The notes under the pieces are model-generated. The model searched no databases. It saw nothing but the letters and a program-made list of their open reading frames with translations, and was not told where the DNA came from. Positions 2,798 to 36,511 of a DNA stretch of 55,287 nt are shown here, piece by piece. The first letter of the stretch is position 1. Each line of letters opens with the position of its first letter. The stretch lies in the NCBI RefSeq assembly GCF_000472905.1, contig NZ_AXAR01000002.1, forward strand, positions 239,604-294,890, written 5' to 3'. The position numbers were made by a program, and so were the translations under genes. This DNA is from Alicyclobacillus pomorum DSM 14955. Its GTDB lineage: Bacteria > Bacillota > Bacilli > Alicyclobacillales > Alicyclobacillaceae.

Positions 2798-3011
2798 GGT
2801 ATCCCCCTTTTTCTTCTACATGGTCGTTGGCCATGTGGTACTACCCTACAAGGCAGGGATAACCAAGGACGGATATCAATAAGGTGGGTGCAACAAAGCA
2901 GGTTTACATCACGCACGTGAATACGCCATGGAAAACCACGTTGCGATAGAAGTTCGTGCAGCTGGTGTACGTTGAATCATCGATGAGGATCTCCAGCAAT
3001 CCCACAGTATT

Positions 3012-3140
3012 CGCCTACGAGGTTAGCTGACGGGTTTGGCGCAATCAACGCCTATGCTCTGCTCACTGGCGTGAGAAAGCAATTCACCCCAGATAATGGT
3101 TCCCCCGTTTTTGAGTGTCTCCACCCAAAATTCGGCCCGT
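3012..3140 (-). promoter_or_regulatory. c-di-AMP riboswitch (ydaO/yuaA class) upstream of the opuC operon
   Basis: Read on the minus strand, the segment holds the hallmark conserved blocks of the ydaO-yuaA riboswitch. These are CGGGGGAACC, then GGGGTGAATTG, then a variable hairpin, then CCCGTCAGCTAACC followed by CTCGTAGGCG. The class binds cyclic di-AMP and normally switches off osmolyte uptake, K+ transport or wall hydrolase genes. It lies between the start of lrgA and opuCA and is oriented toward opuCA. I see no U-tract terminator in the 215 bases before the ATG, so the expression platform is unclear. The 5' boundary is approximate. Confidence 0.9.
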
Positions 3141-3152
3141 CCCTAGATTGCC

Positions 3153-4610: not shown

Positions 4611-5075
4611 TCAGTTCGCGTATTGGCGAAGTTCTGTAAACTCCTCTAAATATCCGTAGCGCTTCAGCTCGCGCAGCGCTTTGCGGATGCTGTGTTCATC
4701 ATCACCGGATTGGCTGGACAGTTCCAGCAGTTCTTTCAGGCCGACTTGCGGATGGTCTTTACAGTAAGCAAGGACACCCTTTGCTGCCCACGAGAGGCGG
4801 TCGTCTGAGAAATCTCCAACAATCTGGCGAAACAACTTGTGTGGGAGGATTTTTAACTCAACCAAGCTTTGCAAAGCCCTGGTCGCCTGCTTCGGATTCA
4901 TCCGACCCTGCCGAGCAAGATCCTTTAGCGTGGGCAAGTTGGATTCAGCGGAGTAGGCGCGTAGAACGATACACACCATCTGCGCATAGATATCCAAATT
5001 CGGGTGTTCAAAGATCTCGGTTGAGAGCATGAAATTACGTGGACCTTCTGTCGCAGCTGGTTGCTGATTACTCAT
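4611..5075 (-). CDS. Tandem winged-helix protein, replication-initiator-like
   Basis: Not a named family that I can assign firmly. The 154 residues appear to hold two winged helix-turn-helix modules. One (about 14-80) has the pattern of a coupled HTH (LPTLKDLARQGRMNPKQATRAL). The second (about 88-150) begins LSWAAKGVLAYC and ends IRKALRELKRYGYLEE. The pattern xLSWxAKGxLAY...ALxELxxxGY is common in plasmid and phage replication initiators and DnaD-like helpers of Gram-positives. The start at 5075 has AAGGAGGA 10 bases upstream. It lies 24 bases after the lytic transglycosylase gene and probably shares its transcript. Function is inferred from fold pattern only. Confidence 0.7.
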   Translation of the reverse strand: MSNQQPAATEGPRNFMLSTEIFEHPNLDIYAQMVCIVLRAYSAESNLPTLKDLARQGRMNPKQATRALQSLVELKILPHKLFRQIVGDFSDDRLSWAAKGVLAYCKDHPQVGLKELLELSSQSGDDEHSIRKALRELKRYGYLEEFTELRQYAN

Positions 5076-5099: not shown

Positions 5100-5912
5100 C
5101 TACAGACGTGCCAGCGCCATAATTCGCTTCACGTACGCAGTAGAATGGTTGTAGGCATAGATTGCACCGGCCGGATTGCTGGAGAAACCGTCCATCGCGA
5201 GCATGTGCGCTGCCGTGTAAACGGCGTCGCTGACATCGTGAATGTCCGGCCGACCATGGTGTCCTGGTGCCGCTACGCCGTACGCTGCAAAAGTGGATGG
5301 AAGGAACTGCATCGGCCCCATCGCACCTTCGCTGCTCACTGGACAATTGGATACCGCAAAATCCGTCTCCGTCTTATGAATGGCGGCCAGAACCGTCCAC
5401 GGAATTCCGTATCGATTGCCTGCTGCTTTGTACAGCGGGATGAGATTTGACGGAACTCCCGGAATGGATGCTGTGGTGTTCGCAATGTCACGTGAGGGGC
5501 TTGCGTCACCAGCCGACCGGGTAGCATTTGGTTGTGTAGAGGTACGCGTTTTGGCATACACTTGCCATTTTTGCGGTACCTGCAAGCGTTCACCAGCGTA
5601 GATGGTGGTGTTTTGCATGCTGTTGATCTGTTGCAGAGCCGATATGGACAGCCCGCTGACGTGCGCTATCTCCCACAGCGTATCGGACGGCTGCACCGTG
5701 TACGTACTGAGTTTGATAGAGGGAGCTTTCGGACCGGTGATGTGCGTTCGATGAACGCTGTCATTCTTGATGCGCTGTTGTGAATCTATTTGAGGCTGAG
5801 ACGTGTGAACTTGATGGAAGACGTTGGCTGTTCGTGCTTGCGTAGTGAATGGTAGACCGAGTAGGCATATCGCGCCCATCAGTAGGACAACGCCATGACG
5901 AAGGTAGTACAT
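5100..5912 (-). CDS. Secreted LysM-lytic transglycosylase
   Basis: Cell-wall hydrolase of 270 residues. Residues 1-27 form a signal peptide (hydrophobic core then TQA). Residues about 70-113 are a LysM peptidoglycan-binding repeat (YTVQPSDTLWEIA...GERLQVP). After a Thr/Ser-rich linker, residues about 155-268 are an SLT-type transglycosylase domain. Glu182 in IHKTETDF is the expected catalytic acid, followed by GAMGPMQFLPSTF. It would cleave the MurNAc-GlcNAc bond to give anhydro ends. The start follows AGGAGATATTTT. A c-di-AMP riboswitch ends about 19 bases before the ATG, a common arrangement for resuscitation or wall-remodelling enzymes. Confidence 0.92.
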   Translation of the reverse strand: MYYLRHGVVLLMGAICLLGLPFTTQARTANVFHQVHTSQPQIDSQQRIKNDSVHRTHITGPKAPSIKLSTYTVQPSDTLWEIAHVSGLSISALQQINSMQNTTIYAGERLQVPQKWQVYAKTRTSTQPNATRSAGDASPSRDIANTTASIPGVPSNLIPLYKAAGNRYGIPWTVLAAIHKTETDFAVSNCPVSSEGAMGPMQFLPSTFAAYGVAAPGHHGRPDIHDVSDAVYTAAHMLAMDGFSSNPAGAIYAYNHSTAYVKRIMALARL

Positions 5913-5930
5913 AAAATATCTCCTTTCTTT

Positions 5931-6035
5931 CGCCTACGAGGTTAGTTGACGGGTTCGGGCAGAAAGGTTGCCCTAGACATGAAGTCCTTCACCCCAAAAG
6001 AAAATCTCCCCCGCCCGCTGACGGTTCGGCGCTTC
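5931..6035 (-). promoter_or_regulatory. c-di-AMP riboswitch (ydaO/yuaA class) upstream of the lytic transglycosylase
   Basis: On the minus strand the blocks GCGGGGGAGA, GGGGTGAAGG, a GGGCAACC...GCCC hairpin and CCCGTCAACTAACC followed by CTCGTAGGCG occur in the canonical order. The closing helix can form between CGCC near 6029 and GGCG at 5931-5934. Only a few bases separate the aptamer from the AAAGGAGAT ribosome binding site and no terminator hairpin fits between. Control of translation initiation is therefore more likely than attenuation (inference). Confidence 0.92.
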
Positions 6036-6132
6036 TTTGGTTCATTCAATATGCATTTATGGTATACAGTCTTCGACTTATACTTTTCGTCAAGGTTACT
6101 AGATTTACGTCCGTTGTGTCCACTGGAAACAA

Positions 6133-6158
6133 TTGGGCCACCCGTGCGGGTGGCCCAA
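6133..6158 (-). terminator. Hairpin terminator after parR
   Basis: An 11-base-pair perfect GC-rich stem (TTGGGCCACCC and complement, 4-base loop) lies 15 bases past the parR stop. On the minus strand it is followed by TTGTTTCC, a weak U-tract. It separates the parMR unit from the riboswitch-controlled gene downstream. Confidence 0.65.
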
Positions 6159-6172
6159 GATGGTTTGTCACT

Positions 6173-6625
6173 TTAGTGGTTTTCCCGGGACTCGAGCAGT
6201 CGTCCGGAATTACGTTGCGCCTGCAGAAAGATTTGCGCCAAATCGAGTTTACTTCGCGGCGCCGGATCTGAACTCTCCTTGGCCACTGGCGGTTCCATTC
6301 GAAGGTCTTCCGTCCGCGGTGGTTCAACGTCTGAATTCGGCTCCATGGACATCTCGTCGCCTGGCGCCGGCCATTCGGGTGAGGTGGCAAGGTCGGACAT
6401 TGCAGATAGGTCCTCATTCACTCGGGTATCCATATCGTTCGATACGTGAACGGATCCCTGTTGTTGAACGTACCTCGTCAAGATTTCCATTACACCTTGG
6501 CTGAAGGTCCCTTCTTCTTTGAGGTGGTTTAAATAAGCGATGACCTCAGGCGGTGTTTCCGCTGGAACGTACAGTGTGACGTCCTTTCCCGGCCGCACGT
6601 AGACGGTGGAACGACGCTTTTTCAA
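6173..6625 (-). CDS. parR: ParR-like DNA-binding adaptor of the ParM system
   Basis: Probable centromere-binding partner of the actin-like protein encoded just upstream. The TTG start at 6625 overlaps the parM stop (TTGA), so the two are coupled. Of 150 residues, the first ~55 are basic and fit a ribbon-helix-helix fold: a strand TVYVRPGKDVTLYVP, helix PEVIAYLNHLK, helix FSQGVMEILTRYV. The rest is acidic, Pro/Ser-rich and probably disordered, ending in a helix (LDLAQIFLQAQR) that could contact filament ends. Length and layout match plasmid ParR/StbB proteins. Assignment rests on context and fold pattern, not on a recognised signature. Confidence 0.7.
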   Translation of the reverse strand: MKKRRSTVYVRPGKDVTLYVPAETPPEVIAYLNHLKEEGTFSQGVMEILTRYVQQQGSVHVSNDMDTRVNEDLSAMSDLATSPEWPAPGDEMSMEPNSDVEPPRTEDLRMEPPVAKESSDPAPRSKLDLAQIFLQAQRNSGRLLESRENH

Positions 6626-7815
6626 TGGGCATCGCTCTCTCCCTCTGCCTTAGTTTCCTTCCGGGCAGTGACTGCCACCTCACCTGTGTGTTTGAGTGCG
6701 TGATCTAACAATAGAAAGGTCCCGCGTGCATTGCGGAATTGACTGTATTCAGCGGAATCGAAACGAATGGGCAACCCAAGTTCCGCGTTGAGTTTTTCAA
6801 TCCAGGGTTGCAACACAATGGATCCACCGCCGATAAACCAAAACTCGTTCGCGTAGCGCACGTGCTTCCAAGCGTTGCGAGCAGACTTCAGCACCTTTTC
6901 TGCCAGGATGCGCATGTGCCTGTTCACGAGATTGGTCATATCAAACACAACTTTGCCTTCCGCGTAAATTTCGTATTCCTTATTCACAAGCATTTGCGTG
7001 AGTTCCGCGGTACTCGCAATCAGTTCCTCGCCCTGTGCGTTCACTTCGTTGCGAATGTTCTCCAACGCGTCGTTGAGGTGAATTTTTGTCCCCGTTGAAT
7101 GCCGTTGGTCGAGCTCAAGGCCGGGCCGGAAGAAGGCAATATCCATGTCGACGCCACCGACGTCCGCAATGCCAAACCCCTTGTGTGAAAGCGGCGATTT
7201 CGAGGTTGCCTCGATGTCGTAGACGCCGGACACATCGTCAATCGCAATGTCAATGGGAAGTGTGAATTCCAATTCCACAGTCACGCCTTTAAACAACGGG
7301 GTCGTAACGAAGGTAACCGAGTGGACGCCGCTCGTAATCTTCGCTGCAAATTCAGTGCGGAATTTGGCAATTTCACTAATGGGCAATCCAATCGCCAGGT
7401 GAACCGTGGCCTTAATCCGCTTCACACCCCGTTTGATGTTTTCCTCGTGCTTCTTGGCCACGGCGTATGCCGCTCCGGTCAGCAGTGTGACCATGGTCTC
7501 CGGCCGTTGCGCCTTTTTCTGCGCGGCTTTGTCTCCGACAATTTCATGGACGACGCCTTCGTCGCCAATCGCCAAGTTCCCTACGTAGACATGGCGATAT
7601 TGCTCGCTCTCAATCGCTGGCGATGTGACTTGTACGTCTAGGAAATCCAGTGGATCTCCCTTGTCGGTTAGGAGGAAGCGTTCGCCAACCGGTTGCGATA
7701 CCACGTTCGGGAAAATGAATGTGTTGTTCAAGTCGTCGTAGATACCTTTGATATGGCTGCTTCCGTTGTCCATGGACAGTGCGATACTCGTCACGAAAGT
7801 TTCGTTCTTGGCCAA
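6622..7815 (-). CDS. parM: ParM/StbA-type actin-like ATPase
   Basis: Actin-fold filament-forming ATPase, 397 residues from a TTG at 7815. That start has AGGAG upstream; a longer reading from 7872 lacks such a site. Visible motifs are phosphate-1 D16-N-G-S...K23, the ParM-like AIGLPISE segment at 141-148, phosphate-2 D218-V-G-G-V-D-M-D225, and the adenosine-binding FIGGGSIVL at 328-335. The mid-protein AEGKVVFDM region and the C-terminal helices are ParM-like. These proteins push replicated plasmid copies apart when capped by ParR bound to parC. A chromosomal copy close to oriC is unusual. The upstream repeat block and overlapping parR complete a three-part par locus. Confidence 0.88.
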   Translation of the reverse strand: MAKNETFVTSIALSMDNGSSHIKGIYDDLNNTFIFPNVVSQPVGERFLLTDKGDPLDFLDVQVTSPAIESEQYRHVYVGNLAIGDEGVVHEIVGDKAAQKKAQRPETMVTLLTGAAYAVAKKHEENIKRGVKRIKATVHLAIGLPISEIAKFRTEFAAKITSGVHSVTFVTTPLFKGVTVELEFTLPIDIAIDDVSGVYDIEATSKSPLSHKGFGIADVGGVDMDIAFFRPGLELDQRHSTGTKIHLNDALENIRNEVNAQGEELIASTAELTQMLVNKEYEIYAEGKVVFDMTNLVNRHMRILAEKVLKSARNAWKHVRYANEFWFIGGGSIVLQPWIEKLNAELGLPIRFDSAEYSQFRNARGTFLLLDHALKHTGEVAVTARKETKAEGESDAH

Positions 7816-7910
7816 GTTGGTTCTCCTCTCATCAAACGAAATTCGTATTCGATATAAATGTTCGACATACAAAGAGTTCTACCTGCTTATTTTGTTTCTG
7901 AGGGTAAGCG

Positions 7911-8165
7911 TGAAAGTTTACCTTTTAAAAGGTAAACGTTAAGGTTTGAATGTTAAAGTGTCACCTTTAAAGTTTAAACCGTAAATTTTAGAGTTTACAC
8001 TTCAAAGTTGATACGGGAAGGCGATGTCAAATCATCCACATGATGCCCCTGATGACGGCGCTCACAGCTTTAAACTTCACGATTTACCTTTCAAACTTTA
8101 CACTTTAAAGCTTAAACTTTAACCTTTAAGGTTTAACTTTTACAGTTTAAGCTTTAAGCTTTCAA
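7911..8165. repeat. parC-like centromere: two AT-rich repeat arrays around a unique spacer
   Basis: This is the gene-free stretch upstream of parM. About 100 bases on each side (7911-8011 and 8067-8165) consist of degenerate short repeats of AAAGTTTAAAC type, spaced roughly 10-12 bases apart. Examples are CTTTAAAGTTTAAACC at 7965-7980, CTTTAAAG at 8103-8110 and CCTTTAAGG at 8123-8131. The left array mostly shows GTTTA on the plus strand and the right array mostly TAAAC, so the arrays are inverted. The spacer (8012-8066) is GC-richer and holds a minus-strand TTGACA (8025-8030) facing parM, without a clear -10. Two repeat blocks flanking the par promoter is the plasmid R1 parC design. Confidence 0.75.
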
Positions 8166-8194
8166 TAGACACATCCCACTATGGGGGTGTAACA

Positions 8195-8234
8195 TAAAAA
8201 GCCCCAAAACAAGGATGGAATCCTCGAGGGGGCT
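8195..8234 (-). terminator. Rho-independent terminator after the KOW-like membrane protein gene
   Basis: On the minus strand AGCCCCC pairs with GGGGCT around an inner AGGAT/ATCCT stem and is followed by TTTTT. It ends the gene that stops at 8283, insulating it from the parC-like block and parM. Confidence 0.8.
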
Positions 8235-8282
8235 GTGCATGATGGATATCAATGAATCGATTTATTTGATGCCAAGGATGAA

Positions 8283-8612
8283 CTAATGGTGTAATACGAG
8301 AACCAGTAGCAAGATAAGGACAATGGCTACGAGAGACACCTGGATGGACGTATGTCTCAAGACGGAGGTGGTCGGTCGTGATTCAAACATCGCGAGGTCC
8401 ACAGACCGTCTCAGGCTTTCCAAGTCACTCTTTTGAAACGCGCCGATATATGTACTTCGCACCTTGGAACCGGGCGGCTTGTAGCGGATTCTTACGTCGC
8501 AGATGCTTCCCGCGACGTGCATGATGACGCCATCATGTCCGGCAAACTCACTGTCTGCACTAGCCCGGATACGAACACGTTGGCCTGCGCGAAAGACTCC
8601 GTCTTGTCCCAT
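8283..8612 (-). CDS. Small KOW-like protein with C-terminal membrane anchor
   Basis: I do not recognise this gene. The 109 residues have an N-terminal half resembling a KOW/SH3-like barrel (FRAGQRVRIRASADSEFAGHDGVIMHVAGSICDVRIRY). A basic linker follows, and residues about 88-107 form one hydrophobic helix at the extreme C-terminus (VSLVAIVLILLLVLVLHH). That is a tail anchor with the body in the cytoplasm. The ATG has AAAGGAGGAG upstream and the gene has its own terminator. It sits directly upstream of the parC-like arrays, but no functional link is shown. Confidence 0.7.
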   Translation of the reverse strand: MGQDGVFRAGQRVRIRASADSEFAGHDGVIMHVAGSICDVRIRYKPPGSKVRSTYIGAFQKSDLESLRRSVDLAMFESRPTTSVLRHTSIQVSLVAIVLILLLVLVLHH

Positions 8613-24150: not shown

Positions 24151-25998
24151 CTAACTGCTGGAACCCTGACTGCCAGATCCCTTACTGGATCCCTGACTAC
24201 TGGACCCCTGGCTACCGGATCCCTGGCTACTGGATCCTCGGCGACCGGACCCTCCACTACCAGACCCTCCACTACCGGCCCCTTGGCTGCCAGACCCTCC
24301 TCCGGCGCTGGTGCCGGCGGAATTTGGCTGTTGCCCGTTCTGCATCTGCGAGTTGCGTGGATCCAAGGGGCTCTGTTTCTGTTCCGCGAGATCCTGTAAA
24401 CCGACGTTGACGCGGACGGTGTCATCTGTGGCTAATTGCTTGGGTCGCTTTCTCATCGACCACACGGGCGCTCGGATCACCGTATCCTGCAGTCCGGACG
24501 CGTCCGCAGGAACAACCGGGCTTAAGTACGGCACACCAAACGATTCGAGAGAGTTTAAGTGGTTGATGATGAAGATGATGCCCACCATCACACCGTAGAG
24601 TCCGAACATGCCGGCCAGAATCATCACCGGAAACCGCAGCATTCTCAGCGCAACAGCGGCATTGTAGGCCGGTGTCGCAAACGAACCAATGGTGGTCATG
24701 GCAACAATGACAACGGTGATAGGACTGACGAATCCAGCTTGCACCGCAGCCTCACCAATGACGAGAACCCCTACAATCGACAACGCCCCTCCAATCTGCT
24801 GCGGCAGGCGAATGGTGGCTTCCCTCAGAATTTCCATCACCAATTCCAATCCAAAGATTTCTGCAATCGCTGGGAACGGAACCCCAGCTCGACCCCCGGC
24901 CACCGCAACTGCGAATTTCGTTGGAATCATTTCCGGGTTGTACGAGATCAGAGACACGTACAGCGACGGAAATATCAGCGAAAAGATGAGGGCTAACAAG
25001 CGGATCCCACGGATCATACTCGCCATGTGAAAGCGCGTATCGTAGTCCTCTGCCGTCTGATAAAATTGCGAGAACACGGCAGGCACAATCAATGCGAAAG
25101 GCGATCCGTCCACGAGGATGACCACTCGCCCCTCCAACATGGCCGCTACGGCCTTGTCCGGCCTCTCCGTGTTTTGCACCTGCGGAAACGGCGAGTAGTG
25201 ATTGTCTTCAATGAACTGCTCCAAGTACCCGGATCCGTACAGCGCATCTGTTTCCACGAGGCGGAGACGACGTTCCACTTCATTGATCAGTTCCTGGTTG
25301 GCGATGTTCGCGTGGTAAAGATAGGCGATGTTTGTCGTCGTGCGTTGGCCAATCTGCATTTGGCGAACCCGCAGGTCTGGCGACCGCATACGGCGCCGAA
25401 TCAAAGATACGTTGGTTCCCAGAGATTCGATAAACGCCTCGCGCGCACCCTGAATGACCTGTTCTGTTCCCGGAGGTTCAATCGCGCGTTCCTTGAATGC
25501 CTGGGTGCAAAGGCCGATGCCCTTCACCACACCATCCATGAATAGCACGGAGTTCCCAGAAATCACCCATGTTGCCGCCTGTTTCATGCTTGTGATATCG
25601 CTGACGTCAGCGTATGGAATGCACTGCGAGATCACCATCTCAAAGAGAGTAGGCCCAGATTGTTCACTTTTATCCAGGTCGAACATGAGACTCGCCAGAA
25701 TTTTGTTGATGTCCGATTTGGACGACGCGTTGTCGAGGTACACGAGCGCGCATCGATGTGTCCCATGGTTGATTTGAATGCGGAACTGTCGTATGAGTAA
25801 GTCCATATCCATACCAAGAATGGATTTCATACCAGCAAGGTTTTCGTCCAAGTCAGCAGATAAGCGGTATTCCGATACAGCCTCTGCCGACGGCCCGTCC
25901 TGTCCGTGCGCTCGCCCCGAATGCACCTGCACGCGTGACGGCCGGACGTCGCCAACTCGTATGGATTTCCGGTATTTTAACTTCCCGATTAACGTCAT
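24151..25998 (-). CDS. gerA: Spore germination protein GerA with Ser/Gly-rich C-terminal tail
   Basis: A subunit of a germinant receptor, 615 residues from ATG 25998 (AGGTGG 5 bases upstream; GTG at 26007 is possible). The soluble N-terminal region (to about 275) includes DLLIRQFRI and VDGSPFALIVPAVF. The membrane region (about 285-480) contains GGRAGVPFPAIAEIFGLELVMEILREA and PQQIGGALSIVG. After KRPKQLATDDTVRVNVG comes a 50-odd residue low-complexity tail of GSGSQGS-type repeats. The tail is encoded by an imperfect tandem DNA repeat and is longer than usual for GerAA. Confidence 0.93.
   Translation of the reverse strand: MTLIGKLKYRKSIRVGDVRPSRVQVHSGRAHGQDGPSAEAVSEYRLSADLDENLAGMKSILGMDMDLLIRQFRIQINHGTHRCALVYLDNASSKSDINKILASLMFDLDKSEQSGPTLFEMVISQCIPYADVSDITSMKQAATWVISGNSVLFMDGVVKGIGLCTQAFKERAIEPPGTEQVIQGAREAFIESLGTNVSLIRRRMRSPDLRVRQMQIGQRTTTNIAYLYHANIANQELINEVERRLRLVETDALYGSGYLEQFIEDNHYSPFPQVQNTERPDKAVAAMLEGRVVILVDGSPFALIVPAVFSQFYQTAEDYDTRFHMASMIRGIRLLALIFSLIFPSLYVSLISYNPEMIPTKFAVAVAGGRAGVPFPAIAEIFGLELVMEILREATIRLPQQIGGALSIVGVLVIGEAAVQAGFVSPITVVIVAMTTIGSFATPAYNAAVALRMLRFPVMILAGMFGLYGVMVGIIFIINHLNSLESFGVPYLSPVVPADASGLQDTVIRAPVWSMRKRPKQLATDDTVRVNVGLQDLAEQKQSPLDPRNSQMQNGQQPNSAGTSAGGGSGSQGAGSGGSGSGGSGRRGSSSQGSGSQGSSSQGSSKGSGSQGSSS
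24155..24305 (-). repeat. Imperfect tandem repeat encoding the GerA tail
   Basis: Short units around GGATCCCTGGCTACT-like sequence recur with drift, encoding Gly-Ser-Gln-Gly-Ser-Ser blocks on the minus strand. Such arrays vary in length by slippage. The reading frame stays open throughout and ends at the gerA stop. Confidence 0.75.
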
Positions 25999-35662: not shown

Positions 35663-36511
35663 CTAATGAAGATTGGAAAACAGATTGAGAATACGTTCTA
35701 AATCGTCCGGCGAAAAATATTCAATTTCAATCTTACCCCGTTTCTTTCCCTGATGAATTCTTACCTGTGTACCGAGGAACGTGCGAAGTCGTTCTTCATA
35801 GTGTTTAATGTGCGTGACGTTCTTTTGAGGTACTGTTTCACGTGAAACATTCTTTTTCGGAGAATAGATGAGTGATTCCAGTTTCCGTACACTCATGTCT
35901 TCCTTTACAACCTTTTCGGCCAACTCCGCCTGCTTTTTCTCGTCCTCCACTGCCAGCAGTGCGCGGGCATGACCCATAGACAATGTTCCACGTGAAACAA
36001 GTGTACGAACCTGTCTAGGCAGTTGCAACAACCGCAACATGTTGGCCACGTGACTTCGGCTTTGTCCCACCCTCTTGGCAAGCTGCTCTTGTGTCAGCTG
36101 TGCCTTATTCATTAACTGAGCATAAGCTTCGGCGATTTCTATCGCATTGAGATCCTCGCGCTGGAGATTCTCAATCACGGCAATTTCCATCAATTCGACG
36201 TCGCTAAACTCGCGCACAACTGCAGGCACAGTGGTGAGTCCAACCATTTGTGCGGCACGAAAGCGGCGCTCCCCCGCCACAATGTCATAACCCCGAATGC
36301 TGCTCTTGCGAACCACCAAGGGCTGAATGATACCGTGCTCGCGAATGGAATCTGCCAGTTCCTGCAGCTTTTCCTCGTTAAAATCTTGCCTTGGTTGATA
36401 GGGATTCGGTCTGAGATCACGCACATCCAAGTGGGCAACAGCGTCCGACTCCGAAACGTTTAACTGTGGAAGAAGTGCCTCCAGTCCCTTTCCGAGTCCC
36501 CGCTTATTCAA
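35663..36511 (-). CDS. parB: Chromosome-partitioning protein ParB (Spo0J)
   Basis: CTP-dependent DNA clamp that loads at parS, 282 residues from a TTG overlapping the parA stop by 8 bases. The N-terminal ParA-activating segment MNKRGLGKGLEALLP, box I NPYQPR, box II GERRFRA (CTP-binding), the HTH around LTQEQLAKRVGQSRSHVANMLRLLQLP, and the C-terminal dimer domain are all present. Two parS sites lie inside the gene itself. Confidence 0.97.
   Translation of the reverse strand: MNKRGLGKGLEALLPQLNVSESDAVAHLDVRDLRPNPYQPRQDFNEEKLQELADSIREHGIIQPLVVRKSSIRGYDIVAGERRFRAAQMVGLTTVPAVVREFSDVELMEIAVIENLQREDLNAIEIAEAYAQLMNKAQLTQEQLAKRVGQSRSHVANMLRLLQLPRQVRTLVSRGTLSMGHARALLAVEDEKKQAELAEKVVKEDMSVRKLESLIYSPKKNVSRETVPQKNVTHIKHYEERLRTFLGTQVRIHQGKKRGKIEIEYFSPDDLERILNLFSNLH
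35834..35849. other. parS site 1 (within parB)
   Basis: TGTTTCACGTGAAACA is a perfect 16-base palindrome identical to the Firmicute parS consensus. It is the ParB loading site. Confidence 0.97.
35984..35999. other. parS site 2 (within parB)
   Basis: TGTTCCACGTGAAACA matches the consensus TGTTNCACGTGAAACA. It lies 150 bases from site 1, so the pair forms a local loading cluster. Confidence 0.95.

Follow-up and report, generated by a model that had tools for sequence, protein, structure and literature searches.

The window analyzed here is a stretch of 55,287 nucleotides from Alicyclobacillus pomorum DSM 14955. It lies on a 295-kb contig that also carries dnaA, and not on a plasmid. The locus under study consists of the following features:

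4611..5075, minus strand: hth36, gene of a 154-amino-acid HTH_36 protein (HTH_36 match, E 2.1e-7)
6173..6625, minus strand: parR-like adaptor gene, 150 amino acids, TTG start, with a 4-bp overlap with the end of parM, recovered by tblastn in relatives
6622..7818, minus strand: parM-like gene of an actin-family ATPase, 398 amino acids, TTG start, recognized by its domain matches
7819..7910, minus strand: leader between array and parM, containing a ribosome-binding site and, partly conserved in 38 aligned upstream regions, a CGAAT..T-rich block
7911..8007, no strand: left arm of the array, with about 14 adjoining heptads (lag-7 identity 0.54; score 62.7 over 7896-8007)
8068..8165, no strand: right arm of the array, with about 14 adjoining heptads (lag-7 identity 0.66; score 80.5 over 8061-8165)

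ParM is assigned to the actin superfamily on the basis of its matches to the Pfam families ALP_N (28.8 bits, cut-off 26.3) and Alp7A_like_C (43.3 bits, cut-off 22) and to the partition protein PHROG 691 (E 2.1e-25). The residues D17-N-G-S-S, D219-x-G-G and G330-G-G, which we take to be the phosphate and nucleotide motifs of actins, are invariant among 33 aligned sequences. The TTG start codon is preceded by GAGGAG. In a profile search of the PDB the sole match of ParM was Dh-cParM1 (E 0.15), and phage records gave no match. Structure modelling had been proposed in a preliminary description of the locus. With a pLDDT of 53, the model of ParM is of poor quality and supports no claim, yet it retrieves the BtParM structure 4xe7 (E 4.5e-5); ParR matched no fold in Foldseek.

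The parR-like gene is translationally coupled to parM and was located by tblastn 3' of parM in 34/34 loci, including the window. Alignment of the window protein with those of 26 of the other 33 loci (the remaining seven are known by tblastn only) showed that both ends of ParR are conserved, namely the N-terminus and a C-terminal motif around FSLAQIFRQ, and that the linker between them is variable. Helices are predicted by AlphaFold2 at residues 26-38, 41-59 and 129-143. No Pfam family matched ParR, and a profile search of the PDB returned only three matches, all to unrelated proteins (E 1.1-4.1). The hth36 gene is located near parM-parR in 26 of 34 loci, in many relatives directly 3' of parR, and its product matches replication-initiation PHROGs (best E 2.1e-8). 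In the window, a LysM-SLT gene (5100-5912) separates parR from hth36. A c-di-AMP riboswitch at 5916-6041 (minus strand) precedes this gene, and a second one is located at 2997-3147 (minus strand). Tandem repeats with periods of 15 and 30 occur at 24158-24300. The window also harbors genes which, judging from their translations, we take to be dnaA, soj, spo0J and noc; homology of window genes to dnaA and ParB genes of other genomes was found. Two perfect parS sites are present at 35834 and 35984 (0.38 expected at up to two mismatches). The genes flanking the locus are presumably ordinary near-origin genes.

The repeat unit of the array is a heptad, [GC]TTTAAA with the core TTTAAA, and about 28 units extend over 250 bp 5' of parM. 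Both arms are AT-rich. Their lag-7 identities compare with shuffle means of 0.29 (left) and 0.305 (right), and none of 2000 dinucleotide shuffles reached either value. Identity was 0.59 and 0.67 at lag 14 and 0.61 and 0.69 at lag 21 for the left and right arm, respectively. The unit of R1 parC is 11 bp long, and the preliminary description had read the array as R1-like repeats of an 11-bp unit, AAAGTTTAAAC. This reading was rejected, as the period is 7 and not 11: lag-11 identity is only 0.045 in the left and 0.046 in the right arm, values that all 2000 dinucleotide shuffles exceed. Thus the actin-like parM, the coupled parR-like gene and the place of the upstream array were retained from that description, whereas the repeat unit had to be replaced. 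Within the window the array score peaks at the two arms, with the next best place reaching 9.7, and the genome contains no second array of this kind. At up to one mismatch, TTTAAASTTTAAA was found at five places genome-wide, three of them inside the array, compared to one place for a control pattern. The inverted appearance of the arms is probably due in large part to the near-palindromic unit.

The CGAAT..T-rich block of the leader may contain a promoter. Within 5900-8400 no sigma-70-like promoter was found on the strand of parM. Two promoter-like sites occur in this region, at 8008-8035 in the spacer and at 8166, both on the plus strand and at chance level. A promoter for parM in the spacer was rejected, since only the plus-strand site is present there.

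Scanning of genome contigs with ParM, which reaches close relatives only, yielded 33 loci, all from Alicyclobacillus, Paenibacillus or Gordonibacillus; with the window and four further loci added, the set comprises 38. The corresponding genomes, which carry the subfamily of the window, are nine Alicyclobacillaceae, 24 members of a Paenibacillus family and five others. ParM identity to the window protein is 75-88% in 32 aligned loci. The alignment (A1) contains the window and 32 of the 33 loci; L031, in which the parM frame is broken, was left out and is hence absent from the trees. A heptad array is present 5' of parM in all 38 loci, L031 included. The lowest array score among them is 31.3, compared to maxima of 23.7 in 1900 shuffles and 15.9 in 522 other 700-bp windows of the same loci; the scoring matrix was trained on the arrays it scored, and the lag and period tests are independent of it. 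In a model-free test of periods 5 to 13, a period of 7 was best in 37 of 38 loci and a period of 12 in one. The two-arm layout of the preliminary description holds for the window, where the arms are about 60 bp apart, but is not a conserved trait; in many relatives about 7-17 heptads form a single main block, and in some there are two or three blocks.

The parM gene is under purifying selection. Its dN/dS ratios in three close pairs (0.038, 0.017 and 0.030) are like those of dnaA in the same pairs (0.021, 0.008 and 0.035); the pair of the window and A. contaminans is saturated. These ratios do not support the earlier suggestion of a relic. A recent integration of a plasmid in a single strain, which had been named as grounds for refutation, is at odds with array-bearing relatives in 38 genomes and with the plasmid collection, in which all 27 ParM matches are less than 60% identical.

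The distribution of ParM is patchy. In the Alicyclobacillaceae, the family of the window, 17 of 41 genomes contain one match each at 1e-20, nine of them with the subfamily of the window and eight with a sister subfamily that is 40-48% identical. At 1e-60, ParM was detected in 24 of the 104 genomes of one Paenibacillus family. A class-wide draw gave matches in 51 of 398 genomes at 1e-10; the 39 outside the family are far weaker, except for a relic in G089, and the weak match of G030 was left unplaced. Arrays of the sister subfamily (L112-L119) have a best period of 8 bp in 8/8 loci, each above 200/200 shuffles. No hth36 was seen in the stretches examined of these loci. The relic in G089, a member of another Bacilli family, is a decayed parM of the window's subfamily (L050, 1420-2280) with a broken frame and a part missing. 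It lies behind a vestigial 7-bp-periodic stretch (0.48, a value without shuffle test) and 55 kb from dnaA. Alicyclobacillaceae with either ParM subfamily have larger genomes (median 4.3 vs 3.05 Mb; Mann-Whitney p 0.001, kinship uncorrected; 37 of 41 genomes, the four under 90% complete being left out).

In the window, parM is located 37.8 kb from dnaA, which agrees with the chromosomal ParMRC-like locus about 38 kb from the origin reported in the preliminary description. Both genes share a contig in 26 of 38 genomes, at distances of 31-146 kb in every case. In 24 of these, parM is on the upstream side of dnaA and is oriented away from that gene; in the remaining two, which belong to one genus code, it lies downstream at 37 and 77 kb. 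Genomes with dnaA on another contig (12 of 38 in the window's subfamily, two of eight in the sister subfamily and 19 of 39 distant matches) are silent on distance. Because shared draft contigs favor short distances, chromosome-scale contigs provide a fairer test. On these, the window's subfamily is found at 37-105 kb from dnaA in 7/7 cases, in 4.9-8.3 Mb (Kolmogorov test against a uniform distribution, 5e-10, kinship uncorrected). In the sister subfamily three of four chromosome-scale cases lie at 63-94 kb and the fourth at 548 kb; in drafts, two more parM genes are located 37 and 62 kb from dnaA.

Distant Bacilli relatives, which were taken as a control, are also origin-near, so that nearness is not special to heptad systems. 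In genomes of one to six contigs, six of eight distant parM genes (relic excluded) are within 132 kb of dnaA; the exceptions are G204, at 3 Mb, and G389, at 3.5 Mb along its contig (one direction measured). On shared contigs 18 of 20 (relic included) lie upstream of dnaA within 281 kb, and 17 of these 18 point away from it. Across all groups, 16 of 19 parM genes on chromosome-scale contigs are located within 150 kb of dnaA. P. soyae deviates from this trend, with no parM found over 219 kb upstream of dnaA. Irregular GTWTACA-like upstream sites (identified by eye in most) are present in the 13 distant intact loci examined; their periods are at best slightly above shuffles, and in eleven loci a different RHH-like ParR candidate comes after parM. 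The distant Bacilli loci L051, L053-L061 and L063 possess their own chromosomal parM-parR near dnaA, with GTWTACA-like upstream sites and ParR ends resembling GDFLAQMNK. It has been shown for P. aeruginosa that parS is functional only when located in a zone of some 650 kb surrounding oriC (PMC5098823). Given this limited zone, the origin-near place of the array fits a cis-acting site.

A parM is carried by a plasmid of A. acidoterrestris (PMC9713406). Among the 20 matches listed from the plasmid collection, the best is 30.5% identical to the window protein. No clear array was found in the ten of 27 plasmid records examined, although in two of these ten the periodicity just attains the maximum of 100 shuffles (0.45 vs 0.44 at period 6; 0.41 vs 0.41 at period 7). 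Between the two orders of Alicyclobacillus and Paenibacillus, the median identity of ParM is 77%, compared to 60% for DnaA, and the tree distance is 0.83 compared to 3.14, whereas at short range both proteins change at the same rate. A careful ParM tree, however, places the two orders on either side of one branch (support 92/95), and a quick tree places the window beside Paenibacillus (support 83); G027, which has one internal stop, was left out of the trees. A single clade of the window and A. contaminans received a p-AU of 0.059. On balance, parM was likely transferred horizontally between the two orders.

The preliminary description knew of no chromosomal system of this kind in the group. 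Chromosome-encoded ParMs, Dh-cParM1 and Cb-cParM, have been published, with filaments of two (PMC12270681, J Biol Chem 2025), but its main text contains no Alicyclobacillus, Paenibacillus or heptad; oriC appears there only in a reference title, and no distance to oriC was found in it. As described in that text, a chromosomal ParM is strongly conserved in Desulfitobacterium, and Cb-cParR binds its parC (PMC12270681). Like these systems, the window locus combines a chromosomal ParM with a neighboring ParR, and the pair is conserved between species. In Clostridium, the conserved surroundings of cParM include a putative replication initiation factor (PMC12270681), which is comparable to hth36 in the window's subfamily. 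The sequence link of the window ParM to Dh-cParM1 is weak, however (E 0.051 in phmmer, 0.15 in the profile search), and Cb-cparC has three palindromic repeats (PMC12270681) instead of a heptad array. No description of the locus, of heptad or octad arrays or of an origin-near placement was found in the open-licence literature searched. Thus the kind of system is known, but the variant with heptad or octad arrays is new.

The ParMRC systems of R1 and pSK41 have the order array-parM-parR, as does the window locus, and an RHH-like adaptor with a ParM-binding tail (PMC5016525); the window ParR may correspond to this adaptor by its position and its two conserved ends, but its fold has no database match. 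Tandem repeats upstream of the operon, a hallmark of ParMRC, are present in 38/38 loci, but a unit of 10-11 bp is absent. Plasmid ParMRC has a 10-bp unit (PMC5016525), compared to 7 bp in the window and 8 bp in the sister subfamily, and the systems of R1 and pSK41 are plasmid-borne whereas the window locus is chromosomal. Contiguous 7-bp units are also found in the omega/delta system (type Ib) of pSM19035, there beside a small RHH-type DNA-binding protein, but its motor is a ParA ATPase and not an actin-like ParM, and its unit is WATCACW (PMC9499535). The AlpC-AlpA-alpS system of CGP3 likewise consists of an actin-like protein, a DNA-binding adapter and sites on the chromosome; it belongs to prophage CGP3 (PMC4446434, PMC5539076), whereas the window ParM matches no phage record.

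The genes, the array with its 7-bp period, the conservation of the set, the purifying selection, the origin-near place and the coexistence with ParB homologues are directly established, and from them we infer binding of ParR to the array, autoregulation, filaments and a force on the origin. We consider the chances about even that the locus is a functional chromosome-resident cassette for actin-type DNA segregation, with the array acting as an origin-linked centromere and as an operator. ParR dimers would occupy adjacent 7-bp units of the array through their N-terminal segment, and this binding would repress the operon. In the resulting nucleoprotein fiber the conserved C-terminal helices of ParR, in the FSLAQIFRQ region, would point outward and cap ParM filaments, whose growth would move the origin-proximal DNA that carries the array. 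B-DNA has 10.5 bp per turn, and 7-bp units thus rotate by about 240 degrees each. Consequently, ParR dimers could not all share one DNA face, unlike those on 10-bp units. Omega is a known RHH protein on contiguous heptads, and its model shows a left-handed spiral that leaves the DNA nearly straight (PMC9499535); by analogy, the complex of ParR and array is expected to be a straight fiber. The cassette would assist in the separation or placement of origins, perhaps during a phase of growth or sporulation in which ParABS is insufficient on its own. As ParB homologues are present in 12/12 genomes checked, it would add to ParABS and not replace it.

This reading is supported by parM, parR and array being kept together (parR in 34/34 loci, array in 38/38) and by the conserved ends and variable linker of ParR, which correspond to the plan of plasmid ParR (PMC5016525). 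Further support comes from the constant period within each subfamily, the dnaA-like selection on parM, the origin-near place and the restriction of the array to one site per genome. Against it stand the ParR fold without database match and the low pLDDT of the ParM model, the presence of ParB homologues in all genomes checked, the genomes with parM far from dnaA (one of the sister subfamily and two distant relatives) and the result for P. soyae. The presence of ParM of the window's subfamily in just 9/41 and 24/104 genomes of the two families further indicates that it is dispensable over long times. That ParABS exists alongside would suit an alternative in which ParMR no longer serves DNA segregation, its filaments being used for cell shape or for spore or membrane anchoring and its array being only an autoregulatory operator. 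The chromosomal ParM relative CorM of Anabaena, whose filament structure is solved, shapes cells together with its partner CorR; CorM was not found in the open-licence literature. An operator role also agrees with the location of the array, which immediately precedes the operon and has no counterpart of such strength in the rest of the genome. However, both the number of units in the window and the 7-17 or more of other loci would exceed the common need of an operator, and a role outside segregation leaves the origin-proximal place unexplained. We regard this alternative as unlikely.

The origin nearness itself could simply have been inherited, an ancient Bacilli cassette having stayed in its original place whatever its role. 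This is consistent with distant relatives of other families lying on the same side of dnaA and, with one exception, pointing away from it (one of them a relic), and with two Alicyclobacillus groups in which one flank of parM has retained the same genes; three genes on one side are common to the window and four Alicyclobacillus loci. Flanking genes within 6 kb are otherwise mostly not common to relatives, one group has parM on the other side of dnaA, and the greater similarity of ParM than of DnaA between the orders hints at transfer followed by settlement in the same kind of place. We judge inheritance rather improbable, a little more so than a role outside segregation. A trapped partition locus of a plasmid or mobile element, with no present role or acting against related plasmids, would account for ParM relatives on Bacilli plasmids (27 records), for the patchy presence across genomes, for the decayed copy in G089 and for the broken frame in L031. 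It is highly improbable in view of the dnaA-like selection on parM, the low identity of the plasmid relatives listed, the lack of clear arrays in the ten plasmid records and the absence of ParM matches in phage records.

The segregation cassette may be part of a wider pattern. Tentatively, and with considerable doubt, we propose that Bacilli possess a widespread, unrecognized second machine for origin segregation, in which ParM acts on a centromere 30-280 kb beside oriC alongside ParABS, and that in the Alicyclobacillus/Paenibacillus branch ParR spirals on straight DNA as omega does, and not in the superhelix of plasmid ParR. If this is true, an actin motor would operate on a new kind of segrosome, and with units of 7 and 8 bp the complex of ParR and DNA would have a novel geometry. 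Direct tests of the question are possible thanks to the conserved array, its conserved place near oriC and the tractable soil bacteria that host it. Should actin filaments move origins in some Bacilli, these bacteria would possess a second motor for chromosome segregation.
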